From Akebia trifoliata (taxonomy: Eukaryota; Streptophyta; Magnoliopsida; Ranunculales; Lardizabalaceae): 64,000 nucleotides of DNA. The position numbers and the translations under genes were made by a program. The notes beneath the pieces were generated by a model that saw only the letters and a list, made by a program, of their open reading frames with translations, searched no databases and had not been told where the DNA came from. This document shows, piece by piece, positions 21,618-57,500 of this stretch; positions within the stretch are counted from its first letter, which is position 1; every line of letters starts with the position of its first letter. The stretch spans positions 35,592,721-35,656,720 of the forward strand of contig CM030708.1 of assembly GCA_017979445.1 (NCBI GenBank). The letters are read 5' to 3'.

Positions 21618-22272
21618 ATGAAGTCAGAAGTAGAGCGACGAACTTTCCTTGAAAGAAGCACAAGCAAAACGATACCTAGATTAGACTAGAAAACTATAAT
21701 GTTACCATTTTTTAAAATTAAAGTTTTGCTTAGGCCACATGCTTAGATTCAACAACCAAGTTGTAAACTTATCACGCTCTACTAGACTGCACAAGACCAG
21801 TCAATTATATCGACCCTTTCTCCACCCCCTTCTTTCTTCTTATTAGAGGCTAAGGTGTTGTTTGTTCAACTGAAAAAAAATAAGTGTTGAATAGCATTAA
21901 GCACTGAAACTTATAAGCGCTAGATTTAAGTGTTGAAAAAGTTGAATCATGTTTGTTACACATGGCTGAAGCTGGTAAATTGTTTTTGTTACCCTTACAA
22001 TCATATTATACATTGTTTGCATGTTTCAAATGTTTATTTCTTATCAAACACAATAAAATATATTATTTCTTATAAAATTAAAATACAATTCATTTTTAAA
22101 TAATAAATAATACTCAAATCTTCAATTTATAAATAATAATTTCTATTTATAAAAACCCACAAATTTCAAATTAAAAATAATAATGTCATACAAGTCATCA
22201 AAATTTGAAATCAACATTAAAAGAACTTAATTTTAGATGAATAATTTTTTATGGAATTAAAGGATGTGTAAT

Positions 22273-22774
22273 TATAAAAGTACCCTATAAATTAATAAGG
22301 ACAACCCACATCATAGTCAATTTTTTTGTTTTATATGGGTTAAAGTTTTTGAAATGAGCAAATTTTTAGTAAAGATGGTCTATATGGTCTAGAGATTATT
22401 TTCACAAAAAATCACTCCATTTTGAAACTTTTAACTCGTCAAAAATAGTTTTCAAAAAAAAAAAAAGGACGATTTACGGTTCTTAAACTTGTTTTGATCG
22501 GGTTAAAAGTTTCAGGATGTGCTGATTTTTTTGTGAGGATGATCTCCTCTTTGTAGAAATCATCCTCATCAAAAATCAATTTATTTCAAAACTTTTAACC
22601 TATATAAGACAAATAATTTAGCCATGGTGTGGGTTTATTAATTTGTGGGGTGCTTATATACTAATGAGGAAATCATCCTCACCAAAAATCAACTCATTCC
22701 AAAACTTTTAACTCATATAAGACAAATAATTTAGCCATGGTGTGGGTTTATTAATTTGTGGGGTGCTTATATAC
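22273..22774. mobile_element. foldback element of the (TA)n family, divergent copy, with duplicated right end
   Basis: It has terminal inverted repeats (left TATAAAAGTACCC...AAATTAATAA; inverted right TATATAAGCACCCC...AAATTAATAA) around a degenerate double-hairpin core with 'GTGAGGATGATCTCC' and 'ATCATCCTCACCAAAAATCA'. That core is the one seen at 27.2-30.3 kb, but the ends are of a different type. The right end from about 22557 to 22660 is duplicated in tandem at 22669-22774. Confidence 0.75.
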
Positions 22775-23074
22775 TTATCCATGGGATATAAGAGGTAATA
22801 TCTTTTTAAGAATAAGGGCATACTTGTCCATGCTCAAAAAAACGAAGGGCATACTTGTCCGTGTCGAAAAAAGCGAAGTGCTTACCGTTTCAGCACTTTT
22901 TTTCAGAATCAAAATAGTGCTGAATTTTTTTCACTTATTTTCAGCAATAAGCACTGAAAATATAGAGTAAATAAACGCTCTATTTTGACACAAAGTGCAT
23001 AATTTAATTTTTTTTAACAATAAACGCTGAAAAATAATGCAAACAAATACTGCCTAAGTGACCCTTTTTTTATT

Positions 23075-26962: not shown

Positions 26963-27240
26963 AGATAAGGTATGGGATTCGTGCCAATTTTAATTAATTA
27001 GTATCTATCTACTTACTATACGTGTTTGACCTTTAATGAATGTCCCATCCAACGAATAGTTTCAGGTAGGAAAACAAATTCCATCTCTCAACGTTTCGTT
27101 GGACACTCGACGTCCAACGACGTTGGTTTTGATTTTCCTTTCACGTGGTTTCGTTTTCTTCCAGGAGATGATTTTGCGGTCCACAATTATAATTCAATGT
27201 TTATACTTTGTCGAATATATATATGTATATATATATATAT

Positions 27241-27604
27241 GGGTCGGGTTAATGCGACACACATATAGACAACGTGTTTGTTTTATATGGATAAAAATAT
27301 TTGGAATGGGCTGATTTTTTGTGAGGATGATCTCTGTGATGAGGGAATCATCCTGGCAAAAAATCATCACATTCCAAAACTTGTAACCCCATCAAAATTA
27401 ATTTACAAAAATTAGACGGTCTATAATTTTTCAACAAAAATTGGACGGTCTAGGAGTTTCATAATGAGCTGATTTTTGGCAAGGATGATCTCATCACCAC
27501 AAAGATCATCCTCACAAAAAATCAGCCCATTCCAAACATTTTTACCCATATAAGACAAAACACGTTGTCTATATGTATGTAGAAATGGTTGTCGTTTGAA
27601 CCTG

Positions 27605-27608
<4 letters not shown>
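27241..27608. mobile_element. foldback element A (terminal type 1)
   Basis: Ends GGGTCGGGTTAATGCGAC and, inverted, GGGTCAGGTTCAAACGAC, followed on both sides by TATAGACAACGTG and then the hairpin core. Flanked by (TA)n on both sides; the right-hand run is 42 bases. Confidence 0.8.
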
Positions 27609-27650
<42 letters not shown>

Positions 27651-27653
<3 letters not shown>

Positions 27654-28016
27654 GGGCGTTCAATGGCCAACTTTTTGGCAAAACATTTTTCAAAACATGA
27701 GTTAGAGGTTTTGGAATGGGCTGATTTTTGGTGAGGATGATCTCTGCGGTGAGGAGATCATCCTTACCAAAAATCAGCCCATTCCAAAACTTCTAACCCA
27801 TGTTTACAAGCTTAAAAATCGTCGACCGTCCATTTTTTGTAAACTGTTTTTGATGGGGTTAGAAGTTTTGGAATGGGCTGATTTTTGGTGATGATGATCT
27901 CCTCACCGTAGAGATCATCCTCACCAAAAATCAGCCCATTCCAAAACCTCTAACTCATGTTTTGAAAAATGTTCTGCCAAAAAGTTTGCTAAAAAGTTTG
28001 CCCTTGAACGCTACCC
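27651..28016. mobile_element. foldback element B (terminal type 2)
   Basis: Left end GGGGGGCGTTCAATGGCC then AACTTTTTGGCAAAACATTT. The inverted right end carries GGGTAGCGTTCAAGGGCA. Two hairpins in the core. (TA)n on both sides. Confidence 0.8.
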
Positions 28017-28031
28017 ATATATATATATATA

Positions 28032-28409
28032 AGGTCCGTTCAACATCCTAAGCTTTACCATACATTTTAACAAACGTGTTTTATCTTATATGAGTTAGAA
28101 GTTTTGGAATAGACTGATTTTTGGTGAGGATGATTTTTAGGATGAGAAGATCATCCTCACTAAAAATCAGCCCATTTCAAAATTTCTAACCCCATAAAAA
28201 ATGATTTACAAAAAATGGACGGTTCACAAATTTTAACTTGTAAATATAGGATTAAAATTTTTGAAATGGACTGATTTTTGATGATGATGATCTACTAATC
28301 ATAGAGATCATCCTCACCAAAAATCAACCTATACCAAAACTTCTAATCCATGTAGGACAAAACACATTTGTTAAAGTGTAAGGTAAAACTTAGGGTATTG
28401 AACATTTCC
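28032..28409. mobile_element. foldback element C (terminal type 3)
   Basis: Left end AGGTCCGTTCAACATCC then TAAGCTTTACCATACA; right end ...GTAAGGTAAAACTTAGGGTA. The core is more diverged than in its neighbours. (TA)n on both sides. Confidence 0.8.
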
Positions 28410-28424
28410 ATATATATATATGTA

Positions 28425-28775
28425 GGTCCGTTCAGCAACAAACATTTTGGCAAAACATTTTTTAAAACATGGGTTAGAGGTTTTGGAATGGGCTGATTTT
28501 TGGTGAGGATGATCTCTACGGTGAGGAGATCATCATCACTAAAAATCAGCCCATTCCAAAACTTCTAGCCCCAGTTTACAAGTTGAAAAATCGTGGATCG
28601 TTCATTTTTTGTAAATTATTTTTGATGGAGTTAAAAGTTTTGGAATGGGCTGATTTTTGGTGATGATAATCTCCTCGCCGTAGAGATCATCCTCACAAAA
28701 AATCAGCCCATTCCAAAATCTCTAACCCATGTTTTGAAAAATATTTTGTCAAAATGTTTGTTACTAAACATTTCC
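28425..28775. mobile_element. foldback element D (terminal type 2)
   Basis: Left end GGTCCGTTCAGCAACAAAC then ATTTTGGCAAAACATTTT; the right end mirrors it with TTTTGTCAAAATGTTTGTTA. Both hairpins intact. Confidence 0.75.
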
Positions 28776-28792
28776 ATATATACATACATATA

Positions 28793-29112
28793 GGGTCAGG
28801 TTCAAACGACAACCATTTCTACACACATATAGACAACGTGTTTTGTCTTATATGGGCAAAAATGTTTGGAATGGACTGATTTTTTGTGAGGATGATCTAT
28901 GTGATGAGGAGATCATCCTTGCCAAAAATCAGCTCATTATGAAACTTGTAGGGGTTAGAAGTTTTGGAATGGGCTGATTTTTGGTGAGGATGATCTCCTC
29001 ACCGTATAGATCATCCTCACCAAAAATCAGCCCATTCCAAAACCTCTAACCCATGTTTTGAAAAATGTTTTGCCAAAAAGTTTGCTAAAAAGTTGGCCAT
29101 TGGACGCCCCCC
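28793..29112. mobile_element. foldback element E, apparent type 1/type 2 chimera
   Basis: The left half (GGGTCAGGTTCAAACGAC, then TATAGACAACGTG) is a type 1 end. The right half (AAAAAGTTGGCCATTGGACG then CCCCCC) is a type 2 end like inverted element B. The join lies at about 28952, where the inter-hairpin spacer is missing, giving a short element of 320 bases with unlike termini. Confidence 0.75.
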
Positions 29113-29134
29113 ATATATATATATATATATATAT

Positions 29135-29513
29135 GGGTCCCGTTCGGCACCCTAAGTTTTACCACACACTTTAACAAACGCGTTTTGTCTACATGGGTTA
29201 GAAGTTTTGGAATGAGCTGATTTTTGGTGAGGATGATCTCTATGGTGAGGAGATCATCCTCACCAAAAATCAGCTCATTCCAAAACTTCTAACCCCATCA
29301 AAATTGATTTACAAAAAATTGACGGTCCACGATTTTTCAACGTGTAAACATGGGGCTAAACATTTCGGAATGGGCTGATTTTTGGGGAGGATGATCTTCT
29401 AATCATAGAGATCATCCTCACCAAAAATCAGCTCATTCCAAAACTTCTAACCCATGTAGGACAAAAAACGTTTGTTAAAGTGTGTGGTAAAACTTAGGGT
29501 GCTAAACATTCCC
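29135..29513. mobile_element. foldback element F (terminal type 3)
   Basis: Left end GGGTCCCGTTCGGCACCC then TAAGTTTTACCACACACTTT; the right end mirrors it with AAAGTGTGTGGTAAAACTTA. Better preserved than element C. Confidence 0.8.
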
Positions 29514-29530
29514 TATATATATATATATAT

Positions 29531-29908
29531 GGGTCCTATCCGTGGCCAACAGTTTGGCAAACATTTTGGCAAACACTTTTTCAAAACATGGGTTAGAGGT
29601 CTTGGAATGGGCTGATTTTTGGTGAGGATGATCTCTACGGTGAGGAGATCATCCTCACAAAAAATCAGCTCATTTCAAAATTTCTAGCCCCATTTTACAA
29701 GTTGAAAAATTGTGAACCGTCCATTTTTTGTAAACCATTTTTGATGAGGTTAGAAGTTTTGGAATGAGCTGATTTTTGGTGATGATGATCTCCTCACCAT
29801 AGAGATCATCCTCACCAAAAATCAGCCCATTCCAAGACCTCTAACCCATGTTTTGAAAAATGTGTTTGCCAAAATGTTTGCCAAACTGTTGGCCATTGAA
29901 CGCTACTC
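29531..29908. mobile_element. foldback element G (terminal type 2)
   Basis: Left end GGGTCCTATCCGTGGCC then AACAGTTTGGCAAACATTTT; the right end mirrors it with CCAAACTGTTGGCCATTGAA. Almost identical to element H. Confidence 0.8.
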
Positions 29909-29931
29909 TATATATATATATATATATATAT

Positions 29932-30310
29932 GGGTCCCTATCCGTGGCCAACAGTTTGGCAAACATTTTGGCAAACACTTTTTCAAAACATGGGTTAGAG
30001 GTCTTGGAATGGGCTGATTTTTGGTGAGGATGATCTCTACGGTGAGGAGATCATCCTCACCAAAAATCAGCTCATTCCAAAACTTCTAGCCCCATTTTAC
30101 AAGTTGAAAAATTGTGAACCTTCCATTTTTTGTAAATCATTTTTGATGAGGTTAGAAGTTTTGGAATGGGCTGATTTTTGGTGATGATGATCTCCTCACC
30201 ATAGAGATCATCCTCACCAAAAATCAGCTCATTCCAAGACCTCTAACCCATGTTTTGAAAAATGTGTTTGCCAAAATGTTTGCCAAACTGTTGGCCATTG
30301 ATCGCTACCT
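29932..30310. mobile_element. foldback element H (terminal type 2)
   Basis: Near-identical to element G over its whole length, including terminal 'GTGGCCAACAGTTTGGC' and both hairpins, so one of the pair probably arose by recent tandem duplication of element plus (TA)n. Confidence 0.8.
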
Positions 30311-30325
30311 TATATATATATATAA

Positions 30326-32380: not shown

Positions 32381-34540
32381 ATGAAAGTTCTCTTCCCTTC
32401 AAAATATCACACAAGAAGTTTTAATACAACTCTTCACTCAAATTTCATTTTTCTTAAATTCTTTCATAGAGCTCATTGCCCAGCTGCATCTCTCACTCCA
32501 ACTCCTACCCATCTCAACACTCTCCTAAATACAACAGTTCAGATCAAAAACATTAGACATGCAACCCAAATACATGCCCAAATCATCACAAACAACTACA
32601 CCTCCCTCCCTTTCCTCCTCAACAACCTCATCAACTCATATGCCAAAATCAGTCAACTCAATCAAAGCCTCCTCATATTCTCAAACACCCCAAACGATGC
32701 TAAGAACATTGTCACTTGGACCTCACTCATCACACATTTGTCCCATACCCACAAACCCTTTGAAGCCTTGACCCTTTTTAATCAAATGAGGAGAACAGGA
32801 GTCTACCCAAACCAATTCACCTTCTCTGCCATCCTACCTGCTTGTGCGGACACCAACATCGTATCTCATGGAGAACAAATCTCTTCTCTAATTCGTAAAC
32901 ACGGGTTCGAATCAGATCTCTTTGTAGGTAGTGCTATGATTGACATGTATGCCAAATGTTCTGACATGGAATCAGCAATGAAAGTGTTTGATAAAATGCC
33001 TGACAGAAACCTTGTTTCTTGGAATGCGATGATTGTGGGCTTCTCGCAAAACAAATTATATGATAGGGCAATTGGGGCTTTCAGGGATGTTCTCAAAGAG
33101 AAGTCAATTAGTCCTGATCAAGTGAGCTTTTCGAGTGCATTGAGTGCTTGTGCCAACATGGGTAGCTTTTATGTTGGGAAGCAATTCCATGGAGTTGTGA
33201 TTAAGAATGGTTTGATCACTTTACCTTATGTGAAGAACTCCCTTTTGGACATGTACAGTAAATGCGGGTGCTTTGAAGATGCTGTCCAATTATTTACAAC
33301 TATGGGAGATAGAGATGTTGTTACATGGAATGTTATGGCTATGGGGTGGGCACAAAATGACTGTTTTGAGGAAGCTTGCAATTTTTTTTGGGTCATGAGG
33401 AGTGAAGGGATATCGCCGGATGAGGCATCGTTCTCAACTGTGCTTCATGCTTCTGCTAATCTTGCAGCATTGGATCAAGGAACTTTGATCCACGATCAGA
33501 TAGTCAAATGTGGTTTTATGGGGAATTTGTGTGTGGGGAGTTCATTGATAACAATGTACGCAAAATGTGGGAGCTTGGTTGATGCGCAGAGAGTGTTTGA
33601 AGAGACTGAGACTCGGAATGTGGTGTGCTGGACTGCCATAGTTGCAGCTTGCCAACAACATGGCTGCGGAGACCAAGTGATCGTACTGTTTGAGCAAATG
33701 CTGGATAAGGGGATTGAACCTGATCATATCACTTTTGTTTGTGTTCTTTCAGCTTGTAGTCATACCGGGCGTATAGAAGAAGGATTTAACTACTTTGATT
33801 CCATGAGTCGTGTGCACAAGATGAAACCCAGGTCTGAACACTATGCCTGCATGGTTGATATGCTCGGTCGAGCTGGTTGGTTGGATGAAGCGAAAAGGTT
33901 CATTAAATCTATGCCAGTTGAGCCGGACCCATCAGTGTGGGGAGCTTTGCTTGGGGCTTGTAGGAATCATGGGAATCTTGAGATTGGTAAAGAAATTGCA
34001 GAGAGGCTTTTTGAGATGGAACCGGATAATCCAGGGAATTATGTGCTTCTTTCAAACATCTATACACATTATGGAAGGTTGGAAGAAGCCAACAAGGTAA
34101 GGAGAATGATGGGGGTGAATGGGGTGAGAAAGGAGCCGGGGTGTAGCTGGATTGACATTAAGAACTTAACTTACGTGTTTACTGTGCATGACAAATCACA
34201 TCCTAGGACAGATGAGATCTATGAGATGTTGCGCAAATTGGCCGAGTTAGTAAAGAAGAAAGGGTATGTTGCAGAAACCCAATTTGCTGTTAACAATGTA
34301 GAAGAACACAAGGAACAAAGCTTGTGGTACCACAGTGAGAAACTAGCGCTTGCATTTGGGCTGCTGGCCTTGCCAGTTGGTAGCCCAATTAGGATAAAGA
34401 AGAACCTAAGGACATGTGGTGATTGCCATACAGTTATGAAATTTGCTTCGGAGATTTTTGATCGAGAGATTTTTGTCAGGGATATCAACCGGTTTCACAA
34501 ATTTTCCAGTGGTTTATGTTCTTGTGGGGATTACTGGTGA
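32381..34540 (+). CDS. PLS-DYW pentatricopeptide repeat protein (organelle RNA editing factor type)
   Basis: An intronless frame of 719 residues. The first 50 or so are rich in Ser/Thr/Phe with scattered basic residues, as in an organelle transit peptide. Tandem PPR motifs of the P-L-S kind fill about residues 100-515 ('VTWTSLI', 'VSWNAMIVGFSQ', 'VTWNVMAMGWAQ', 'VCWTAIVAACQQHG', 'LIDMYAKCG'-like units). An E/E+ region follows from about 519 (VWGALLGACRNHGNLEIGKE) and a DYW domain ends in CSCGDYW. The cytidine-deaminase-like signature is complete: HSE at 651-653 and CGDC at 679-682. DYW PPR proteins bind specific organelle transcripts and carry out C-to-U editing, in mitochondria or plastids. 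I cannot name the ortholog or its target site. The ATG at 32381 gives the full transit region; no better upstream start is in frame. Confidence 0.95.
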   Translation: MKVLFPSKYHTRSFNTTLHSNFIFLKFFHRAHCPAASLTPTPTHLNTLLNTTVQIKNIRHATQIHAQIITNNYTSLPFLLNNLINSYAKISQLNQSLLIFSNTPNDAKNIVTWTSLITHLSHTHKPFEALTLFNQMRRTGVYPNQFTFSAILPACADTNIVSHGEQISSLIRKHGFESDLFVGSAMIDMYAKCSDMESAMKVFDKMPDRNLVSWNAMIVGFSQNKLYDRAIGAFRDVLKEKSISPDQVSFSSALSACANMGSFYVGKQFHGVVIKNGLITLPYVKNSLLDMYSKCGCFEDAVQLFTTMGDRDVVTWNVMAMGWAQNDCFEEACNFFWVMRSEGISPDEASFSTVLHASANLAALDQGTLIHDQIVKCGFMGNLCVGSSLITMYAKCGSLVDAQRVFEETETRNVVCWTAIVAACQQHGCGDQVIVLFEQMLDKGIEPDHITFVCVLSACSHTGRIEEGFNYFDSMSRVHKMKPRSEHYACMVDMLGRAGWLDEAKRFIKSMPVEPDPSVWGALLGACRNHGNLEIGKEIAERLFEMEPDNPGNYVLLSNIYTHYGRLEEANKVRRMMGVNGVRKEPGCSWIDIKNLTYVFTVHDKSHPRTDEIYEMLRKLAELVKKKGYVAETQFAVNNVEEHKEQSLWYHSEKLALAFGLLALPVGSPIRIKKNLRTCGDCHTVMKFASEIFDREIFVRDINRFHKFSSGLCSCGDYW

Positions 34541-37205: not shown

Positions 37206-38207
37206 AAGGCTAGTCGACCTCTACCATTTAACGGATGAAATTTTTTGGATGAAAATTTCCCATTTCCTAGTGCCAAGGACTAATTTTGACTCAAAACTCA
37301 TCGTTGCACGCTCTTTCAGGTCCACGGAACTCAAATGAATGGAGAGCGAATCCACTTAATCACTTTTTAGTTATAGTCGCAGGGGCAGATCCAGGAAGGG
37401 TTCAGAGGGGGCAACTACCCCCCTCCCCTCAACCTTTTGGTTGTTTTAAACACCCCTAGATTTTGGTTATTATTTGAGATACACCATGTTTTCAAGTTGA
37501 TGACATGCCCCCTGTGACTTTGATTCCCACCCCCCAATTCAATTTTTGCCTGCCCTCCATGTTATAATTGATTTAGATAGCACCCTACAATTTGTTAAAT
37601 ATTTGAGATACCCCCACCTATCAAACTATTGACATGAACTTTTTGACCTTGTTGTCCCCCACCTTTTCAAAAAAAAAATGGGCGATTTAGGCACTCCTCT
37701 TTTAAATTAGTGAATATTTTATATATCATTTGTTTTTATACTAATGGCATGCCTTCTCCTACTTTTTTAGACTAACAAAAATCCAAATATCTTCATTCTT
37801 AACCTAAGACCCCATTTTTCTCCATAATATCAGACATCTTCAAACTCTTCTACCTCTTAGTACAGTAATTTTGATTTATTTAAGTTCATCTTCTAGCCAA
37901 CGTTTTGAACATCATCCTAAATCTCTTGTAGAAAATCTTAGAATTTTCTATCAAAATTAAAAATCTCACCATCTTCTACTCTTAAAATCCTATCTAGTTC
38001 TTAGATTTGATGATTAAAGTAGATTAACTTAAAGTTGAAAACTCAATTTTACCAAAGAGGTTGAAGATGACTGATTTTGCAAAAAGAAATTGAAGGATTT
38101 TTTGTCTTAGGTTGAAGATAAGGGAATGAAGTCATTTGTAGAAGACTGAGGTCAAGAGAGCATGTAAGTGTTTTAGTGAAATTTGAGATAGAATGGTGAT
38201 TATCTAA
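37206..38207. other. intergenic region, nothing recognised
   Basis: AT-rich sequence with repeated 'CACCCC'/'CCCCC' words near 37.4-37.7 kb; no gene or clear element. Confidence 0.5.
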
Positions 38208-38397
38208 CTTAGGCATGTGGCATACTCAATTAACACCCCTGATGTGACAGGCTCGAAAATTGTAAATCTGCTCTCTTGAAGATACAAAAATATGGTTCCT
38301 CATAAAAAGATGTTTTTTTGTTTCCCAAGGAGAGCAGATCTATGGTTTCTGAGCCTATCACTTCAGGGGTGTATATTGAGTACGCCCTGTGCCTAAG
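38208..38397. repeat. 190-bp foldback element with about 75-bp arms
   Basis: The left arm (ACTTAGGCATGTGGCATACT, CAATTAACACCCCTGATGTG, ACAGGCTC, AAATCTGCTCTC) and the inverted right arm (ACTTAGGCACAGGGCGTACT, CAATATACACCCCTGAAGTG, ATAGGCTC, AGATCTGCTCTC) match along about 75 bases around a 40-base loop. No coding capacity; target-site duplication unclear. Confidence 0.75.
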
Positions 38398-38399
38398 TC

Positions 38400-40340
38400 A
38401 GATTAATCCGACTCTTTGAGATAAGCTATGTTTTGAAAAGGAATAGACTGGACTCTTCACTTGAGTCTTCTCTCATAGACTAATGGGAAATGACCTCAAT
38501 GTCCTTTTCTTCAATCAAACTCTAAATGTCCTTTTGAAAATATTATAAACATGAGCATGTTATATATTATCATACAACAGCAGCTTAAGAATGGGAAAAT
38601 AGAAAAAAAGAAAAATGGTAGCCCATTTGATGTATTATGCGACCACTAACTTTATAAAGCTAAGCTTTATTATACCTTCCAGGCCTATATGTTCAAATAT
38701 AGCATACCTACTACTGTTTCTGGAGTGTATTTTTTTTTTTTTTTTTTCTTTTGCTGGTATAAGCAAGTGGGTTAGTGGTCATTGTTTCTAGGTTAAGCAT
38801 GCCAACATACGTGGGTGTGGCTCCTCCTGCAAACGGTCAAGATGCAGATTTGCTCCATGGGTGATATTTTGATATTATTGTGGATAATATTTCAATTCCT
38901 ATTAGAAAGAATGTGCTAAGTAAATATTGAGTGTACATTTTTCTCCACTCGCAAGTGTATCATACCCTAGTTAACCCTCATGACCCTCTTATGTCCATAG
39001 TCCACCCCCTCTCCAACAGACTGGTCTTTTGGAATAATTGGTTGTCTTACAGTTAAAGATACAAAGGGAGGCGACACTAAGAAAGCTGATCAAGATATTG
39101 GAGATGGACATAATTGAATTAACAGAAGATTCAATTAATTTCAGACAAAATTCGTTCTCTTGATCCCAAAGTCTTGAGATAGAACTTTCATGATGATCAT
39201 GACGACGACTTAGGACACAATGTTCCTGATTCGGTTGGTTGTTAATCTCATAGAGGGGCCAACTTAGCTTGCAAGGGTTATGAAGGTCTGGGCTGGCTTT
39301 TTGCACGTACAAAATTATACATTTCTGCACAAGAGGAGTCCATGAACCCCCTCCCTCCCACACACACAAAAAAAAAACAAAAAAACAAGAAAAGCAGGAT
39401 AGGACCACAAACCCACACAGGAAAATGGAGACATAGTTGCACTGGCATGTCATATTCCCCACCCAACTTAAATTGTGATTATGCTGTGGACACTAGAGTC
39501 TATTTCGAATCAGAAACCCTTGGTTTCTGTCTCCATGCATGGCCCGACTGTCCTCCTCTTGGGACCCAACGTCGTACATGCCCAGAAAGAGAGTGCCAAC
39601 CAATTTGGCATAACAATTAGTGTCCACACTTGCTTTGCTTCAATTCAACAATAACTAATTTAGCTCCCATGTACCGAATTTTTTAAAAGGTAGTAAATTC
39701 TGCATGACATATTGTTTCAGCAGCATATGAATCTTCTTTTTTCCATTTTCTATATTTATAAATTAGGCAATATTTTCAAGCAAGGTATTTTTCCTCTTAT
39801 ATTACCTGAAGGTACTCCTCACAGTTACTGTCGTTCGACTCCTACGTGCATGTCATGATCTTCCAATAAAAAAGAAATGTAATTCAAGTTATTACTTTTG
39901 AACCTAGCTCCATGTACAAATTAAGTTCCTGCTGCCATATATAAGTTGTAGGGGTAAATATCGCTGAATCAGTCCGATCACTGGATCAAACCATTATCAG
40001 TTTTTAATGGTGTCAAACACTATTAAACTTGTGCAATGAAGAGAGCATGTGAAGTAGGAGAGAATGAGAAGATTTGACTAATTAATTAGGGGGTTAAGGT
40101 TAGGTCGAGCGATGTCAAAAGTAGAGAGTTAAAGTTTTCAAGGAGTCATCTCCCTTCCTAGAGGTCTAGGGGCCCTTTATAAAAATGTGATCAACTATGA
40201 AAGGACAATGATGTCAAAAGCTTATTATCACTAGTCTTATTGGCTAGGGGCTTGATGACACATGGATAAAGTGATAACCTAATCGTTCAAGCCTGATATA
40301 TCATCAGCTCTTTCTCTATGAGTGATCTTGCATGGATATA
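38400..40340. other. intergenic region, no supported gene
   Basis: A poly-T run at about 38730-38748. The largest frame, 157 residues on the minus strand at 38989-39462, is dominated by Cys/Phe/Val low complexity and has no motif; I do not call it a gene. Confidence 0.5.
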
Positions 40341-40344
40341 TATA

Positions 40345-40615
40345 AAAGACTGTTCGGAAACTATAAAAAGAGCCAAACATTTTTCAATATATGGTGTGGG
40401 AGTGATCTCCATGGTAAGAAGATCATCCTCTCAAAAAATTAGTCCATTCTAAAACTTCTAACACTAATTTACAAGTTGAAGAATTATGGACAATCATTTA
40501 TTTGTAAATCACTTTTGATGGGGTTAGAAGTTTCAAAATTGACTGATTTTTTCCAAAACTTCTAGCTCACATAGTAAAAAATGATTAGGTCACTTTAGGG
40601 CCTCTGAATGCTCCT
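40345..40615. mobile_element. degenerate copy of the (TA)n foldback family
   Basis: 'AGATCATCCTCTCAAAAAAT', 'AGTCCATTCTAAAACTTCTA', 'TTTGTAAATCACTTTTGATG' and 'GGGGTTAGAAGTTTCAAAAT' are recognisable parts of the core and spacer seen at 27.2-30.3 kb. The ends are eroded and no long (TA)n flanks remain. Confidence 0.65.
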
Positions 40616-43600
40616 CCCTTAGCACCAAACTATACCATTTGCCTTCGTGGTTATATGAAGATGACATTACTGGACACAAGTGTAATATTTGTTAGGTATT
40701 GCTTGACTTCATTAGTCCACATGACAATCTAATTCGCATTTTGGTGACCTAACTCATGTGCCAGTTCATAAGATGTGGTGTAAATGTGTACGTGATACCC
40801 ATTTTTTATTTTTATTTTTTGATAACGTTGTGATACCCAAAATTTTGTTACATATATACAGTACTTTTCATCATTGTTTTCAAGGAGAACAGATTATCTC
40901 TGTTTTTTGTAGGATGCTATGAGCATCCAACTAGCTAGGTGTGACATTCAAGTTATTTCAACCCGAAAGATTAAGGGTGTGTTTGAAAACGGAAAGTTGT
41001 GTGCGAGAGTCCATGACTCGCACTAGTTACTTTAAATTGTGTGTTTGATAAAATTAACCCTCACAAGTAATGGACTCTCCTACTTTACAACTATCGGTTT
41101 TACACGAATTTCAACTTTTATTGATTTTGATGAAAGTTGAGCACTATCAAGCTCACCAGGTATTCTCTCTCTCTCTCTCTCTCTCCCCAGCCCATGCTTT
41201 GCTCCCCGTCTCTGTCTCTCTTTCAAAACCAACAACCTTGGTCTTCAAGCATTCCAACCTCTGCTTCATGGTCTCCATCTCTATCCCCATCTCCATAACC
41301 CAACCTCAAGCTTCACCACTAGCCTTGGATTCCTGCATCTTACATCCACAAATCAGGGGAACGTCTCCCTCCTCACTCCTCTCTATCATCTAATCAGATT
41401 GATCAGTAAGATCCTCAACAATGGTCTTGATGAGCTAAAATCATGGAATGAATATCTTGCTTCCCAAATATGGGTTTTCTCGTTCTAGAGCCATTATGAA
41501 AGGTAAGCAACTCCGATCGAGTCTTGTACCCAGTTCGAAAATCGGAACTAGTGCTATTCGCTTCTTGAGTGTATATTCTGATAGTTCTATAAAAAGGGGA
41601 AGAATGTCGAAGGAAATTTTCTTTACATCTTCTATGTTGTCAAACACCCAAGTTAAAATTATCTTACAGAAGTTGAAGTGTCATGAGTTCAACTCTCATT
41701 TCCCAAACACACACTAAATTGCTGTTTGTCTCTTCCACCCTTGGTAGGGCCGGGATACAAAATTACAAACTACCCCTCCCTCTGGCCTCTACTATTGTAT
41801 TTGTACGGGTTTCCCGTTTTTTCTTCTTTCTCACTCATGAAAATTTGAAAACAAAGCCTTTATATTAAGTTTCTTTTCAAAGCGCCCAATCAAATCAGGT
41901 TTGATTTGAATTACTGAGTCGATCTAATGAGACTGAACCAAGAAAAACAGAGTCAGAGCCAATGCCTTGGGGGTGAGTATAGATTTGCAGTTAACAAATG
42001 AATTGTGCTATATTGAAGTTGTTTGTCAGGTACAGATAAAATTAACGAATGAGGTACGTATGCATGGTGAACATGCTGAAGCTAGATTTTAGATTTTAGT
42101 ACGTGTGTGATTTGTCAAACAGCAAATCATCAAAATAGTATCTCGGGTCCATGTTGTACGTGTGTGATGTCACCTGCCCTAGGATGATATGTCCCTTTAA
42201 TGTGGTGTTTAAGGTCCCCACATAAACATTGGTTCAATAAGTTATGTGTGTGTGTCGCTTATGACGTAATTATATATTATTATTGATCAAGATACTAACA
42301 ACTTATATCAATGGATAAAGATTGACAAAACCTATAGTTTTTTGTATTAAATTAATACAATGTAAATGCAACTATTGTAGAAGATATAAACAGTGGTCAT
42401 TTAGGGGGAGTTGTAATATTGATTAAGACAAGTTGGTAGAAAGAGAAAAAGGAGGGGAAGCTGTTCTGTTTTTGTTGAGTTGGAGGAGACAAAGTGGGCA
42501 ATGGGTTTGAAAATTTTCAGATTTGGACAAAAAAGTGCAAGTTTGAGTTGATGGAAGGTTTGAACTTTGAACTCATTTCAAAAGAAAAGACAAACAAAGA
42601 CGTCCCCAGGAGAAATGCACTCGATTTAATCCTAGACACCTACCTAACTGGATACAAGGTTCAAATTCAATATTGTATACTCCTCAATTCAACCTCTCTT
42701 CTTTTCTTCTCTCTCTCTCTCTCTCTTTCAACATTTGCATTGGCCCACTTATTTATGTGAGATCGTGTCAATCGAAGCACATGAAAACCTTGTGTCAAAA
42801 TCAAACGAATAAGTGGTGAGGAAAAAATATCAAAAGACAATGGACGTAATTCTAGATTTTTGACTACAGGGATTCATGTCTACATTAATGAGTAAGACCC
42901 CCCCCCGGCGGGCAGGGTGGTTGAGAAGGTTGAGAAACTCATTCCTATTAGAGATTTTGTAGATTGATATATAGATAACTTTATCACAGAGTATAGTGGC
43001 CTAATAACATCATATACACCATTCCTGGTCTACATGACCAATTTGGATATGTTTAGTGTGCGAAAGTGATTACTTCTCTGAGGTAGCTTGCACATGATCA
43101 AAAGCCAATGATGAGGGAGAAAATTGCTTACCTTATGACTTTGTGCAACCTCTCTCCCCTTAGCATTCCAAAGCACAAATAATCAAACACCAAACAAAGG
43201 ACAATTAAGGAGAAGATTTGATGTGGGCATGATGTTAAGAGATGGGAGTATGGACTACCCTCCCAACAATATCATTGCGTTGTCCCCATTTCTCCTTACT
43301 AGGTTTCATCGATTGGAGAACCCAATAAATAAAGTTCATTGCAAGAACCTTCTATCCTCTTCAGCGTGTCTAATCCCCCTCCTGTTTTTGTTTTGATTAT
43401 TCTTTTCTCAGTCAAACGTAGAAGGAATTAGTGTTTGATTTTCACATGTAAGCATGCCCCCATGATGAGTTACCACGTGGGAGTAGGGGGCATGATCCCA
43501 TTTTCAGGCTTGCTTTATGAGAGTACCTCAACACACATTCCTTTAGAATGTTGGGTTTGGGCTTGAAAAACGTGTTCATTTTGTTGAGTAGATGGATATT

Positions 43601-44206: not shown

Positions 44207-47200
44207 TTACTTGAACGAATACTTTGACAAAAATTTAGATACCTCAACTGCACTCTCATAAGCACCCTCCACACATCGACCCAGGGCTACCCCTGATACA
44301 TAATTGCCCCCAAGAAATAGTCCCTCAAACCCACCATCTCCGAGAGCACCTTTAGCAGATTCAAGGAGATCGAGATGGCCAATCAAGAACTGGGGTATGG
44401 CTTGTGGCCACACACGTACTCCAAGAACAAGAGGATCAATTGCATTTGGATTTATAAGCATCTTTCTAAGGTCTCGATCAACTGCCTCCACAAGCTCACT
44501 CTCGGTCTGCAATCAATATATAACATGATTTATTTATAATTTAAAAAAAATGGTCAGAAAGAGCAAAAAAAAAAAAAAAATTGGTTGTAGAAATTAAGAC
44601 TCTAGACAGCCACAAAAGAATACATAGGTTGGAGAACATTAATCCCAGTTACACAGCCACAGGAGAAGTGCAATCCAAACTATAAAATGGATAGTTTGGC
44701 ATGGAAGATCTCCAAGGTAGGTCAAATCAAATGGTAGGATCTACCGACCAGCTTCACGGCCCATGTAATTGTCAGTCAACAGTCCTACAAAGACTGCTTG
44801 ATGGGTAATTTAGATTCCTCTAAAGAGAAACATAAGTTTAATCTTTCTGTCTACAAGTTCTGTACATTATCTCAAATAGATGCTGAAATTATGCATTCCA
44901 CCACAAACTAGTAATACTCAGTGATGATGTGCTACCTTGGACAAGATTCCAGGATTGGTAGCGCCTCCTATATAGTTCAAAAGCAGCACCCTTCCAGGTG
45001 GCGCTCGGTTTGGAAAAAGTGATGAACTGTATATTGTTCCTGCATGCATTAAGAAAATATCAGCTTCAGTGATCATTTTTCTTCCACATCTTTTCAGGAA
45101 CATCGTTCAATCTTTTTTTTTTTTTTTTTGAAAAGTAACCTAATATTATAAGTAGAAATGTGAGAAGTTCGGTAAGCAGATCTGTCGATTGAGATACAAC
45201 AACCGGCCAGTAAACTTCTCTCTTTGTAAACATTGTTCATTCTTCAATGCATGTGTAGCGTGTAATTTTATTAGGTAATGGTAGTGGAGGAGTGAGGGGC
45301 AAGGATCCTGATTGTTCAAAAGAAAAAAATCGTACCTAAAGTCTCCACTCCTTGACTGCGTGGGTGCAACTGGCCAAACCCTTTCAATTCGCCATCTACC
45401 AAACACTCCTTTCGAATTGCTTCCTTTGGATATGAAATAGAAACTGCTGCAACTGGTGGGTAATAAAACTTTGAAAGTGCATCTGCAGCAGGGCCCTGCC
45501 AAGTCAAGGTTACAACCTATTAGCTGTAACTGATTAGCAATGACGATGATGAATAATGACTCCTACATTCATCCGGTATTTTTTTTTCCTATTCTTTAAA
45601 CAATACAAAAATTGTAATCTGGTAGGTGCTTCTACTAATTACACATCACCTAACCAGAATGGCAAGAAATGCATGCCCATAATGGGATCATCAAGTAGAT
45701 TGTTTTTTTTATTTGATAAGCAAGTAGATTGTTTTGTCATCATTTGCAAATGCAAGGTGGCAACCAATTCATGTAGAACTGTTGCACAAATATTTCACCA
45801 GTTGTAGGAGATAAATATTCCAAAAAAATAAAAAATTGGATCCCACAATCTTAAACCTAATAGTCCAACATTTTTGACAAATTTAAGGAACAAAATTGAC
45901 ACAGTTTCATTCATTAAAGTATAATTTCTAATAAATTGAGCAAAAAGATTTATTTGAGATAATAAGCCACAATGCATCCAAGCCATGCGGAAATGAATGA
46001 GTCCAACAATCCCCATACACTCATCCAATTTGAAAACCACATGTATTGACCAGTTTATCCAAATTACGACTGATCCACATTCCTTAAATGCAACTAATTC
46101 GGAAGTTCGTTTTGCATCAATTGACAATATACAATCTGAACCAGAGCAGATGAGGAGATGGGAAAGAGGAACATACAGAAAGTGGGCGTAACAAGCTACT
46201 GGCAACATGGGATGGAACAGTCAGGACAACACTTTTTGATTGGACTGAAATCAAGCCTTCTGGTGTTTCGAACGTCAAAGTATATCCCCCACTCTCCAAT
46301 TTTTCAATGCTTGTAAGTTTCCAAGATACCTTAACTTTGCCTCCCAACCTGAAAAGATAAATACAACTTCATCAGAATCATAAAAGAAAAAAATTCACAA
46401 GGAGCCAATGGTGTAAAAGAACCACTGTAGTGGTATTCTTTAGATTAAAAGGGGACCTGATAGAAATTGCATCTGGCAACATAGAAAGCCCTCTCTTAAA
46501 AGATCCAACTGTCTGTCCCTTTGGTTTTGGCAATCGCCTGCATGTTAACTCAGTTCAAGACAATGGAAAAATACACTGAAGTAAGCTACAAGCAAGATAA
46601 GCTGCAATGCATCAACTATATTACGGATCTCGAGGTGGTTTGGGATTTTTATTCTTCTCCTGAACTGTTTTGAAGGTGCCACCAATAATACTACCGCCAA
46701 TTTGTTCTAGCTTCCAAACTCTTCCAAATGCTGCTTTCATGCTCAGCTTTGAAGGATCACCCGCATAAACACCTGCATAAGCCATTTTCTCATAAATAAA
46801 ACTAAAGTCACCAACCTAAGAAAAAACAAAAAAAAATTTGCGTGCAAGGAGGTGAAAGTTTACACGGCAGACAAGCATAACCAAACAAAAAATGACAAAA
46901 ACAGTACTGCCACATACTCAAATTCTACAAACCACACATGGTAAGATTGAATTTCTCAGAAATTAAAAGACCAACAATCAGCACATATATATGTTAGAAA
47001 AGTGTGTGTGTGTGTGTGCGTGTTGGGGGGGGGGGGGGGGGGGAGGGGTTGAAGGGGTTCAAATTCCTGTACACTCTATTCATCATCCATGGATTGGACA
47101 CCTCAGCTTCACCAAGAGCTGAGGTCCACCTGTGATAGTCAAGCACCTCGACTGCTTCTAGAGGCTGAGGTAATTCGACGAAACTTTCCAAAGATGGTAC

Positions 47201-50200
47201 CTTAACCTTAGCATGGTCGAAGGTACTATGAACCCAAAATACCTCGGCTCCATCACGGTCAAGGTAGTTGGGTTTAGGAAGTATAGATTTATGTTAAGGG
47301 TGAAACCACCTAGGGTCATTCAACTCCCTTGGGTATGTTCATGACTGGCCAAATTTACATATGTCGTACCTTCGTTCAGCTCGATCCGAGCTCCAACGAG
47401 CAGGAGGCTGCTAGTCAACTGGCAAACCAGCCCCTTTTAAACCCCCCCCCCCCCCCCCCCAAATTAAAAGGGGTGGGGTTGTGGGGAGGGGGAGGGGGGC
47501 TTGGTTCTGGCTCATTAACACAACTGAGAGACCAAAAGTTCTTTCCCAAAATTGAATACTCTGTGGCCCCCTTCCATCCTCAACTACATTATCCCCAGCT
47601 TACTTACTTGTCGGGCTGTCTTTGACAGGCACCATACCTGTGTCCCACAGAAGTGACTTCACCGAAGAAGAAGAAGACAATCTGGCAGAGAAAAAAAAGA
47701 AAAACCAGAAGGTTTTGTTGAAGAAGAAAACCTCTACTGACACTACATCTCAAGAAGTGCATGACTGGAGAAGTCGCCACATTATACAAGATAAACGACT
47801 ATAATATTATAACTTTAAGCAAGTCTTGTGTGTGTGTGTGGGGGGGGGGGGGGGGGTGGGTTTGTTCTGGCTCATTAACACAACTGGAGAGACTAAAAGT
47901 TCTTTCCCAAAATTGAATACTCTGTGACACCCTTCCATCCTCAACTACATCATTTCCAGCTTATTTACTTGTCGGCCTGTCTTTGACAGGCACCATACCT
48001 GTGTCCCACAGAAGTGACTTCACCAAAGAAGAAGAAGACAAACGGGGAGAGAAAAAAAGAAAAACTAGAAGGTTTTGTTGAAGAAGAAAACCTCTACCGA
48101 CAATACATCTCAAGAAGTGCATGACTGGAGAAGTCGCCACATAATACAAGATAAACGACTGTAATATTATAACTTTAAGCAAGTCTTGTAAGAAAAATAG
48201 TTATACACTCTCAAAGGTATATGTATAGGATGTTTGATATGTAAGGTGGTATGACCGTGATCCATTACATATAGTCCATCAAAGCATTATGGTCTGGAGG
48301 ATCACACTTCACATTGAGATGATAACGCCAGACTTTAGAGACTTCATGCAGGAGAAATGACAGGAGCTCTTTAAAACATGACATTTATGATGAACTTTAG
48401 CATCCATAATCTTCAACATGCATGCACTCTTTTTGATAGAACTGAATATTAAAAACTATGTTACTGCATATGCATATTTAGTTCCATTGTTCTTGAGCTC
48501 TCTGCATATGTGTCAATGACACCAAAGATTATCCATGTCCAATTAATAAGCGTGATGCCTATCTATGGAACTGCTGCACATATTTCCTTCTCAGCACCAG
48601 AGAATAAAACCTCCTGAAACAAAACCAAATATATACAATTGTTTCTCCACAAAAAGTCAAATTTCGTGTTGTTAACTTCGATCTTTGATGAAAAACTCTG
48701 ACAAACATTAGAACCAATAGAAATTCATATAAGAGTGCAGATCTAAACAAGTTAGGTAAAAATTAGAAGGGCACTGAAAACATTAGCTATGCACCTGAAC
48801 AGAATGGCTCTATAAAGCGTTCAAAAACCTCATCACCAAGATTACGACGCACAAACTCTTCAACTGATTCCTCATGATCCTGTAACCTTTGTCAAAAATT
48901 AATACATGAGAAAACCTATTCAACAATGCACAACAAGCCTACAAACAAATGGTTGATGAATTTATAAGCAACCATTTATTATAAAGGAATTTATAAAGAG
49001 AAATGATTAGGACAAACTGGTGGAGGAGGCCGAATGCCAATAGCACCAAATCCAGCCCGGAGCTTCCCAGGAATGCTCATCAAGTCAAAGAAAGGCAGAT
49101 CAGTTGGTTTTGAAGGAACTGGCCTCAATTTTCCATCCCACAATACAAAACGCGGAGCATCAGGGTCTCCCAAAACAAGATCATCCTTTAAACCACTATC
49201 CACCTGCAACAAGAAGAGGTATTACAAGTTATATATAGTAATGAAAATTCATTTCAGCAAGAAGAATGTGATCATTTATATTAGCTATTGATACAAAGAA
49301 AAGCATGGCAACGGTATATTTGCAACATCGCCGAAAAACATTTATTAAACATTCTTTCCACGTAAAACAAATGCCTAGAAAGGCATAAAAGAAAACTAAG
49401 TTGCAGAGCTGTTAAATGAAAACAATTGTCTGGGTAATTATTACAACCAGGCCTACCATATCAATCTTGAGGTGTGTTACCATTGACTTACCAAGGTTAA
49501 CACTACTGGCATGCCTCAAAAGATGAAGAATGAGATCATCACTCCTCAAATTACAACCAGGCCTACCATATCAATCTTGGATTTAGGAAGTTGGGTTCTT
49601 TGAATGGAGCTTTGTTAGGGAAGTGGCTTTGGAGGTTTGGTGGGAGAAGGAAGGGTTACGGCGTAAGGTGATTGCGGCGAAGTTCGAGGAAGACTCATTT
49701 GGGTGGGAAAGTGGTGAGGCTAAGAATCCTCATGGGTGAAGGGTGTGGAAAGGTATCCTTAAGGTTCTCCCTCAATTTAAGAAGAGGGTGGCCTTTAAGG
49801 TGGGAAGGGGTGATAGAGTTAAATTTTGGGAAGATTCTTGGTGTGGTGTGGGTCCCTTGAAGGAGCGGTTCCCTTCGTTGTATGTCATTTCTAAAAAATG
49901 GAATCTTTCGATAAGGTTTCGTGGAATGGGGATGGAGGTCCAACTTGGGATTTGGGTTTCAAGAGGTCTTTGAATGATTGGGAGTTACCAGAGGTTTCAG
50001 AGTTGTTGGATAGTTTTGATAATATTCCCCGGGGGCCATTTGGTGATGATTCAAGATTTTGGGTTGCTAATAACAAAGGGTTTTTTTCGGTGAGAGAGTT
50101 CTATAATGATTTGAGTAGGAGTTGTGATGATTCCTTCCCTCGTGTAGTTGTTTGGGGGCCCTAGGGTGCCTTCTAAAGTGGTTTTTTTTGTGTGGACTGC

Positions 50201-54534: not shown

Positions 54535-57500
54535 ATGGAGGTCACTCAACAGAGCAATTTACAAGATGTAAGTATTGACTTTCCCAAAGATCATTCTAGA
54601 CGAGATGAGCTTCGATCCAAATCTGACCTTATCTAAGTTAATTTTCTTCTATACTTTTCTCTCTCTGTATTTCTTGCTAGTATAAAATATATTTTACTGA
54701 TTTGGTTTTGATAATTATATTTTACTGAATTTAGAAAGATAGAGCTGTGTTTGGCTGAAAAAAATTACAATGCTTTGGTTTCTGTAAAATTTCTTATGCT
54801 TTCCCTTTTACGAACATATGGTTACTTTAGAATGTACTTTCTCCTTCATTATCGAGCAATGTTATCTATTAGATAGTTGATCTGATGAAAAAAAAAAAAA
54901 TCTTTTAGGATCAGACAAGTGACTATAGGAGTTTCGGCAGCAGTCACCTTCCTTGTTGCCAGTCACGGAAAATCTCCATTGGAATTATGGCAGAAGCACC
55001 AGCAAAAACTGCATCTGGAGCTAGAGAGGAAGATGGACCTGCATTGTCTAATACAGAAAAAGTAGCTCATTCCGAAAGGTCGTTGATGAAAGAAAACTGC
55101 AAAGGTTCAGAATCAATAGTTTCCTTGAAAGGAAAACAATCAGAAGCTCCAAGGAAGGATACTTCCCCATGGATTTCTACTAGATCTTTACACCAAGAAA
55201 CTCCAATGACAAAGACAGTTGAGTTTTATGAAAACGGAACTTCAATTCAACAATCAGCCAATGGTGTGCAGAAGAAATCCAATATCGTAACAGAAACACC
55301 TAGAACAAAGACAGTTCAGTTTTATGCAAACCGGACTTCTATTTTACACTCAGAAGATGGTGTGCAGAAAAAATTTGGCAGTATCACATATGGGTGTACA
55401 AGAAAGATGGGTGGAAGCAAGAAAAGGATGGAAGAATTTGCGTTTGCAAGTGCGCGGGAAGTTCACTTGTTGGATAAAGGAGCAGAAGAAGAAAAAAATG
55501 CAGCCCAAAAAAGCAATGAAGCTTTGAGGAGTAAGCTTTGGGAGATATTAGGAACTGCTCCATCACAGAATGAGCAGAATTTGGGCTCTCAGACTCATGA
55601 GGTGGTAGCAAATGATTTGAGGCCAGAGGGTCAGTTTGATCAAAAGGGTGGCAATGCTGCAAAGCTTAGACAGAACTCGGACACAATAGAGACTGATTCT
55701 GAAAGTCCAAATCAAACCATTCGGAGACCAGTAACTCGTTCTTTAACTCGAAAGAAAGCTCCAACTGCAGCGGGATCAAAGTTCAACTACAAGATCGGCA
55801 GTCAGGGAAATTTGCCACCTTCTCCAAGAAATAGATGTGGACAACAAGAGAAGAATATATTCTCCTTTGATGAAGTAGAAGGATGGTCAAGGAGTGTGCG
55901 TGGTACCGTCAATGGCAGTTCCTCTGCATTTATGCGTAAGATGAGTGAGAGAAAGAGTAGAGTTGAGCCACAGAAAATTTGCTTTTCTGGTAAGGGTAAT
56001 CCAGAAAGGAGCCAGCAAGGTTCTGAAAGGGGAAAAAAATCACCACCAGCTATGAAAACGGCATCAGATAGCAATAAAATTTTTTACAGTCGTCCATCTC
56101 AAAATAACAGGGAGTATCTCCAGCCAAAGAATGGAGTTGTAGAAGAAGAACTCGACACCCCAGCAAGGAAGAAGAAAGATCAACAAGAAGATTTAAACAG
56201 TCGAAAATTACCACACGGAACAGAATCTCAAGAAGATTTTCGTAGCTCGTCCTCAAAGAAGAACGCAGATCCCCACTATGATGTCAACAGTCCAACATTT
56301 GGCATGGTAACACCCATCAAAAACTGTTCTCCTAGCCCGCCACCTGCAAAAGGTAAATCAATAGAGCAAGGTGTTCAAAGTCCTTCACCGACCGATAAAA
56401 AATCAATGGAAGAAGGTTTCTGTGGCTTGAGGACTTCCACGACTTCAAAACGTGGTTGTTTTGGGTTGGACACTCAAACAGATTTCTCTGTATCCTTTTC
56501 TCTTCATTGATTTTTCCTACTGTTAAATTTTTCGGATACTTCTGCTGGTTTAGAAGCTGCTGCATAGTTTTTTGCTTTTAGTCTTCTGTCATTCCTTATT
56601 AATCTTCTAGGATGATACAAGAGAGCTTAATGAGTCACCCATCAGGGAATCATTGCCTGTTATGGAAGAGAAAGGATCGGAAGCTAGGCCATCTCAATCA
56701 TCATCACCATCAGATCAGGATGCTGAGAGCTCAGAAGAAGATCCACCCATCAAGAAAGGTTATACTGTTAAAAAATATGGATACATCAATAATCAGACAA
56801 ATATGCATACATATGTACTTGCATATAAAATAATGTTCAACTTCATCGAAGGAAAAAAAAATTACTATGAAATAAGTTGCTTTGACAAATGTATTTATTA
56901 GAGGTCATACTGTTAAAAAATATGTATACATCAATCATCAAACAAATATACACACATGTACTTGCATATAAAATAATCTTTAACTTCATCAAAGGCAAAA
57001 AAAATACTGGGAAATATGTTGCTTTGACATACGTATTTAGTTGATATCAACTGACCATAACCCCTAACTAATAATAGTTTGCCAGAATGTTCTAGCATTC
57101 ACATATTCCTCAACGCAGAACATTATACCATCTCTCCTTATTAGTGCATTCTTCACTCACTGTCATTCTTGTTTCCAATCTGAAATACTAGATATATATT
57201 GGTAATGTCGTCGAATAGTAAAAATTGTAAGGAGTGGGATTTGATTCTAATCATGATTCATCTTTTTGGATTGCGTGATTTGTAAAGATTTCCTAATAAC
57301 TAACTTGGGGGAAAAAAACAGATAGCATTCAGGAAAGCTAAAATATTCATAACATGACCATATCCTCCATATTCATCACATAGAAACATACTTCTGTAAC
57401 AGTCCACACCACCAAATATTGATTTCAATTCAGTATGGAAATTTAAAATGCAAGATTATGATCTAATGTGGGTGTTATGTTATGACTTTCAAATCATTTC

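Follow-up and report, generated by a model that had tools for sequence, protein, structure and literature searches.

Small non-autonomous transposable elements set in microsatellites have been described in several plants. Here I report a family of this kind in Akebia trifoliata, represented by an array of eight non-coding foldback elements between (TA)n tracts, at positions 27215–30324 of a 64,000-nucleotide stretch of contig CM030708.1 (assembly GCA_017979445.1; C5:35592721-35656720, hereafter the window). The published families referred to below are likened to the Akebia family by description, the MuTAnT end mask alone being compared by eye. In pineapple, Ac-mMITE-1 and -2 reach tens of thousands of copies, ∼74% of them (TA)n-flanked, in non-nested clusters; 1,435 copies carry 9/10-bp duplications, and the autonomous element was not found (PMC8449440). 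The SaTar elements of guayule, rice, sorghum and citrus are small non-autonomous Mutator-like elements (MULEs) lying between microsatellites in non-nested, modular arrays, with a cluster of eight reported in sorghum, neighbours fused by deletion, and, for many of the families, 9–10 bp duplications at insertions away from microsatellites (PMC5907723). Medicago truncatula MuTAnT is a 292-bp foldback with 144-bp inverted repeats that targets (TA)n, with 9-nt duplications where a copy does not sit in perfect TA, and a related putative autonomous MULE, AutoMuTAnT, is known in the same species (PMC4486113). Finally, the rice Micron elements, as summarized in PMC5907723, are ∼380 bp long, are TA-flanked in 492/510 copies, and have ends resembling those of a rice MULE.

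The Akebia elements are very probably a non-autonomous, MULE-derived family of miniature inverted-repeat transposable elements (MITEs), ∼370 bp in length. Judging from the published descriptions, arrays made by stacking are already represented by SaTar and Ac-mMITE, and the present family is a very abundant case of the same kind. It differs from Ac-mMITE in its host, and the excerpts on Ac-mMITE make no mention of a double-palindrome core (PMC8449440). SaTar arrays commonly combine members of unrelated families, and their flanks are often not TA (PMC5907723), whereas the window array is TA-flanked throughout and drawn from a single family that comprises several subfamilies. MuTAnT has only 218 copies, arrays are not described in the excerpts, and its end mask, GGGGTTTGCTAGAACA, differs by eye from the family ends GGGTCCCGTTC/GGGAAATGTTC (PMC4486113). 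The initial annotation of this locus knew of no family with such a double-hairpin core, but a foldback plan made up of four similar segments has been published for MuTAnT (PMC4486113). Four core words of the Akebia family were found in no open-access full text searched, repeat databases lying outside this search, and it is only in that sense that the family appears new as a sequence. Among the papers listed for Akebia genomes and MITEs, none concerned this family.

Organization and conservation of the elements

The array (coordinates in the window) is composed as follows:

27215–27240, no strand: left border TA tract, one G interruption
27241–27608, plus strand: E1, end type A; left end lacks 11 aligned columns
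27609–27650, no strand: (TA)21, E1–E2 linker
27651–28016, minus strand: E2, end type B
28017–28031, no strand: TA tract, E2–E3 linker
28032–28409, plus strand: E3, end type C
28410–28421, no strand: TA tract, E3–E4 linker
28422–28775, minus strand: E4, end type B
28776–28792, no strand: imperfect TA tract, E4–E5 linker
28793–29112, minus strand: E5, fusion of an A-type half and a B-type half
29113–29134, no strand: TA tract, E5–E6 linker
29135–29513, plus strand: E6, end type C
29514–29530, no strand: TA tract, E6–E7 linker
29531–29908, minus strand: E7, end type B'
29909–29931, no strand: TA tract, E7–E8 linker
29932–30310, minus strand: E8, end type B', probable local duplication with E7
30311–30324, no strand: right border TA tract

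Once E2, E4, E5, E7 and E8 are reversed, all eight elements align end to end as one family, and none is interrupted. The initial annotation, which listed eight foldbacks of 320–380 bp alternating with pure (TA)n runs, was correct for the elements (320–379 bp each), but of the nine borders, all of them TA tracts of 12–42 nt, two are impure: the first carries the single G, and the E4/E5 tract reads ATATATACATACATATA. Pure TA runs of at least 12 nt number 11 in the window, and 8 of these lie inside the 3.1-kb array. Runs of this length are not due to chance, since 200 dinucleotide shuffles of the window yielded a mean of 0.01 and a maximum of 1.

Each element is built as an end, a palindrome and a half spacer, followed by the inverse of the same, so that each half holds a hairpin. 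The arm word TTTTGGAATGGGCTGATTTTTGGTGAGGATGATCTC is present four times per element, as 32 arms of 36 nt with 0–7 mismatches to the core word. The left half and the reversed right half are 0.70–0.86 identical across the eight elements, forming long inverted repeats, and the resulting four-segment foldback plan is that given for MuTAnT (PMC4486113). The annotation had also described each element as two ∼100-bp hairpins made from one word; the words are indeed in place in all arms, but with a DNA energy model the lowest-energy fold of all eight whole elements is one long stem, not two separate hairpins.

I then compared 144 near-full copies from 46 loci of the host genome (described below). Mean pairwise identity is 0.913 in the first hairpin, 0.866 in the spacer and 0.896 in the second hairpin, falling to 0.72–0.73 in the subterminal regions and 0.67–0.68 in the outermost 16 nt, so that the ends are the most variable part of the element. 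In seven window elements the hairpins are at 0.89 and 0.86, and the spacer at 0.80. The core is therefore only modestly better kept than the spacer, not far better as first claimed. There is no sign of selection for base pairing inside each hairpin either, as arms of the same hairpin match at 0.891 (n = 16) and arms of different elements at 0.893 (n = 448). With these two results, the argument that conservation marks the core as the functional part becomes weak.

The ends fall into several types, which agree between left and right in 84/88 complete copies by clustering, and in 80/88 by seed words (seven of these being “other” on both ends). That several end types share one core had first suggested that ends were swapped onto a common core. 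However, the core of a copy correctly gives the end type of its nearest copy in another locus in 71/73 cases, and the end types are therefore ordinary subfamilies. For type C, a left and a right end taken from the same element resemble each other no more closely than when they come from different elements (0.818 vs 0.820; the B' values are 0.841 vs 0.800), and subfamily divergence is enough to explain the end types.

Abundance, flanks and target duplications in the host genome

As the annotation had proposed, the host assembly (652,546,730 bases, 878 contigs) was searched with the core. The exact 32-base core word occurs 13,341 times (6,729 and 6,612 on the two strands), while its reversed control is absent; as expected for a plant repeat, the exact core pattern gave 0 matches in viral contigs and 0 in prokaryote contigs. 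A search for the window array returned 13,806 first-look candidates, 40 of which were scored. Copies outnumber exact words, with 172 words for 235 profile hits in the 46 loci and 7 words for ten copies in the window. Extrapolating from this biased sample, the copy number is roughly 15–20 thousand, or ∼1% of the genome.

The core of the sample consists of 38 loci from C1:0-3.0 Mb, taken around 100 listed exact core words, with forward words only beyond 1.16 Mb. The 46-locus set adds locus L079 and seven arrays, the window array among them, the other six being chosen for their likeness to it; two arrays outside the C1 sample, L077 and L078, were retrieved together with the 38 loci. The 38 loci contain 151 profile hits, 138 of which have a family neighbour within 120 nt.

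In these 38 loci I counted as full-length the copies missing at most 60 model positions per side, with both flanks inside the locus; a further 58 partial or cut hits fall outside this count. A run of (TA)4 or longer within 45 nt of the predicted end is found on both sides in 71 of 93 such copies, on one side in 18, and on neither in 4. As in SaTar, the majority thus have a microsatellite on both sides, and the chance level is low, such a run occurring at about 2.5% of those positions that lie over 100 nt away from every hit. This tabulation, suggested in the initial annotation, bears out its idea of a mobile family residing mostly in (TA)n. The annotation also held that copies without (TA)n flanks would speak against that idea, and such copies do exist in part, with 22/93 lacking (TA)4 on at least one side.

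An initial test for target duplications in 143 elements found repeats in 38/143, at a mispaired control of 15%. It was uninformative because the ends of neighbours give false repeats inside arrays, and the test was therefore confined to isolated copies. Eight near-full copies among the 46 loci have no family neighbour within 150 nt. A script identified a perfect, flush 9-bp duplication at the GGG/CCC tips of five of these (L040, L041, L046, L049, L059), namely GATATGATA, ATTATATAT, TAAAAATAT, TTCATCTAA and TATCTTATA. A sixth, ATTTTAGTT, was seen by inspection in L075, to which the script is blind, one tip reading GAG. The remaining two, L053 and L069, sit in TA runs. All six isolated copies outside long TA tracts hence carry 9-bp target duplications, like the published relatives.

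Taken together, 9-bp target duplications and long inverted repeats indicate Mutator-like elements, whose duplications are usually 9 bp within a range of 8–11 bp. Both features are present here, and it is on them that the assignment to this superfamily rests. The same argument was made for the published families (PMC4486113, PMC5907723, PMC8449440).

For the 88 complete copies, the nearest copy in another locus has a median identity of 0.974 and a best of 0.997, values raised by the loci picked for likeness, two of which are joined by the best pair. From these identities, part of the amplification is probably recent.

Assembly of the arrays

The initial annotation proposed that copies pile up by separate insertions. 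Among the 144 near-full copies, adjacent pairs have a median identity of 0.812 (n = 96), and pairs from different loci 0.817 (n = 2,854). Neighbours thus resemble each other no more than do copies taken from separate loci, so the arrays arose mainly from separate insertions side by side. The four classes of adjacent orientation are similarly frequent (28, 27, 22 and 19 of 96 pairs), and junctions of C-type elements in the C1 loci (c1-c2 10, c1-c1 3, c2-c2 2) are not far from 2:1:1. Up to 13 TA-bounded segments follow one another (L043). Of 96 such segments, by the hairpin test applied, 69 hold two hairpins, 17 one, three or four are found in 4 and 2 segments respectively, and 4 hold none; the six segments with three or four are probably fusions or internal gains of a module. 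In L050 (C1:763900-768100), for example, exact core words are spaced 156–157 nt apart over three successive intervals. Nesting, looked for with a narrow test, was flagged nowhere in the 38 loci.

In the window, the tree of copies has a single pair that are both neighbours and sisters, E7 and E8. Their identity is 97.6%, their TA linker is similar, and they are probably a local duplication; all other adjacent pairs are of unlike subfamily or orientation. The arrangement is that of SaTar: modular, non-nested, and made by independent insertions rather than duplication, E7/E8 excepted. E5 is, by its sequence, two elements fused into one, and most of the spacer is gone: nt 1–154 form an A-type half, 96.1% identical to reversed E1, and nt 159–315 a B-type half (E5B), 95.5% identical to E2. 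A deletion reaching from one element across into the next would leave just such a product, and deletion-made fused elements have been described for guayule clusters (PMC5907723). A single block duplication of E2-E3-E4 into E5-E6-E7 was also considered, and is unsupported, as the divergences are unequal: E2/E5B differ at 7/157 positions and E3/E6 at 57/375 (Fisher p 0.0004), although E2/E5B and E4/E7 (30/323) are not clearly different (p 0.07).

I therefore considered whether the array could instead be a tandem, satellite-like amplification of an element plus its TA tract by unequal crossing over or slippage, in which case the tracts would be part of the repeat unit. E7/E8 with their similar linker would fit, as would the 14 of 96 adjacent pairs that are at least 95% identical (9.5% between loci), an excess showing that some local duplication occurs. 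As a sole cause it is nonetheless largely refuted, and it is very improbable as an account of the array: neighbours belong to different subfamilies in mixed orientations, the divergences just given are unequal for one of the two comparisons, the median identity of adjacent copies equals that between loci, and isolated single copies with 9-bp duplications exist. The initial annotation had named an array wholly explained by tandem duplication as evidence against its model; apart from E7/E8, this is not what is seen.

In the model that I favour, a Mutator-type transposase provided by some other locus of the genome would move the ∼370-bp elements, inserting them preferentially into (TA)n tracts; the same insertion at A+T-rich sites other than microsatellites would leave a 9-bp target duplication. 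A new copy would remain flanked by TA, the flanks would offer fresh targets, and copies would stack side by side; from time to time the array would be reshaped, by copies duplicated locally (E7/E8) or by deletions that join neighbours (E5). The source of the transposase, the targeting step, and whether the TA tracts pre-existed or expanded after insertion are parts of this model that I infer. It is essentially the model of the initial annotation, which was right in this respect, but such families were already known.

Two further explanations were weighed. In one, which is compatible with the favoured model, the tracts are made rather than sought: Mutator insertion would occur in short A+T-rich sites, and tracts would grow during gap repair into new targets. 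I consider this unlikely, though deserving some weight. Four of the six 9-bp duplications contain TATA or ATAT, excerpts of PMC5907723 cite such an expansion for recent maize insertions, and 113 of 117 TA runs of at least 12 nt in the 38 loci abut an element, but this last figure is expected to be high, since the loci were chosen for holding the family. Moreover, empty sites in Medicago average nine TA repeats (PMC4486113), and free TA runs exist, three of them in the window outside the array. In the other, neighbours would sometimes move as a composite unit, such as the C-TA-B' pair E6-E7, and arrays would spread partly as blocks. Pairs resembling E6-E7, in the same order and orientation, recur at 92–98% identity with different neighbours (L084-L091, L073), one of them standing alone within the 1.75 kb retrieved (L085), and C1 dimer pairs alike on both members are in excess (13 against 4.1 expected at 95% or more; 2 against 0.3 at 97%). 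The recurring pairs were however mostly picked by similarity to the window array; the 13 dimer pairs come from few loci and do not count as independent, all eight of those listed involving L039; the C1 junction test is nearly empty, with one b2 junction (b2-c2) among 38 and only four b2 tips; and the pineapple clusters are, in the excerpts of PMC8449440, not identical. Such composite movement appears improbable. A combination of these ideas, in which the family builds its own landing pads by ordinary Mutator entry at A+T-rich 9-bp sites, later TA expansion, and self-propagating arrays with some two-element composites, is speculative and also doubtful. If true, much of the genome's complement of long TA microsatellites would be the work of this one family.

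Several points weigh against stacking by targeted insertion as I favour it. The 38-locus sample is non-random, covering the first 3 Mb of one contig with an exact core word in every locus, and the results on adjacent identity, isolated copies, conservation and nearest copies include loci chosen for their likeness to the window array. Near-identical neighbours are in small excess, as noted above. In the target-duplication test, the mispaired-flank control for flush repeats of at least 8 was 2/56, not 0, and for the two decayed copies elsewhere in the window no target duplication exceeds what shuffled sequence gives. Finally, no autonomous element with the family ends was found in the four 7-kb loci checked among the 150 MULE matches listed (those scored out of 587 candidates in a PF10551 search of the host assembly); three of these loci are from the best five and one has the longest listed frame, and the best family-profile hit in them has an E-value of 0.66. 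No MULE domain was present in 66 of the 73 window open frames of at least 80 amino acids outside the array, the seven overlapping the PPR and ASY3 frames being left out. From a half-element in L054, the 7.5 kb inward contain only further short family copies by profile, open frames there lying outside that search.

Other features of the window and significance of the family

Two decayed, dispersed copies of the family, both with approximate ends, are found outside the array:

22264–22782, plus strand: decayed copy, profile hit 22307–22637 (E 1.2e-54), no (TA)n flanks
40347–40616, minus strand: decayed copy, profile hit 40395–40551 (E 4.9e-33), flanked on the left alone by a short TA run

The first contains an internal 113-bp tandem duplication (22556–22775), probably much younger than the copy itself because its units match at 94%.

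The array ends ∼2 kb upstream of an open PPR-DYW gene of 719 amino acids (32381–34540, plus strand). Macadamia and Protea come first among the named near-full-length matches of its product, and the highest identity is to Macleaya, 82% over 81%. A frame for an ASY3-like meiosis protein (54987–56510, plus strand) has its best match in Macleaya cordata, with Tetracentron, Ranunculus and Papaver also among the best. The window also contains the H/ACA small nucleolar RNA snoR109 (45156–45232, minus strand, 65 bits), a 360-bp unit in two tandem copies with 93% matches (47483–48189), and a foldback with 89-nt arms that are 78% complementary, not matched by the array profile (38202–38403). A frame with a zf-RVT domain (58226–59317, plus strand) is probably the remnant of a non-long-terminal-repeat retrotransposon.

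The Akebia family adds an early-branching eudicot of the order Ranunculales to the plants with MULE families that stack in microsatellites, at a copy number of the order of that in pineapple. In one genome it combines near-identical and old copies, isolated copies whose 9-bp duplications are clean, and runs reaching 13 segments, which makes it a good test bed for whether such elements seek TA tracts or enlarge them.

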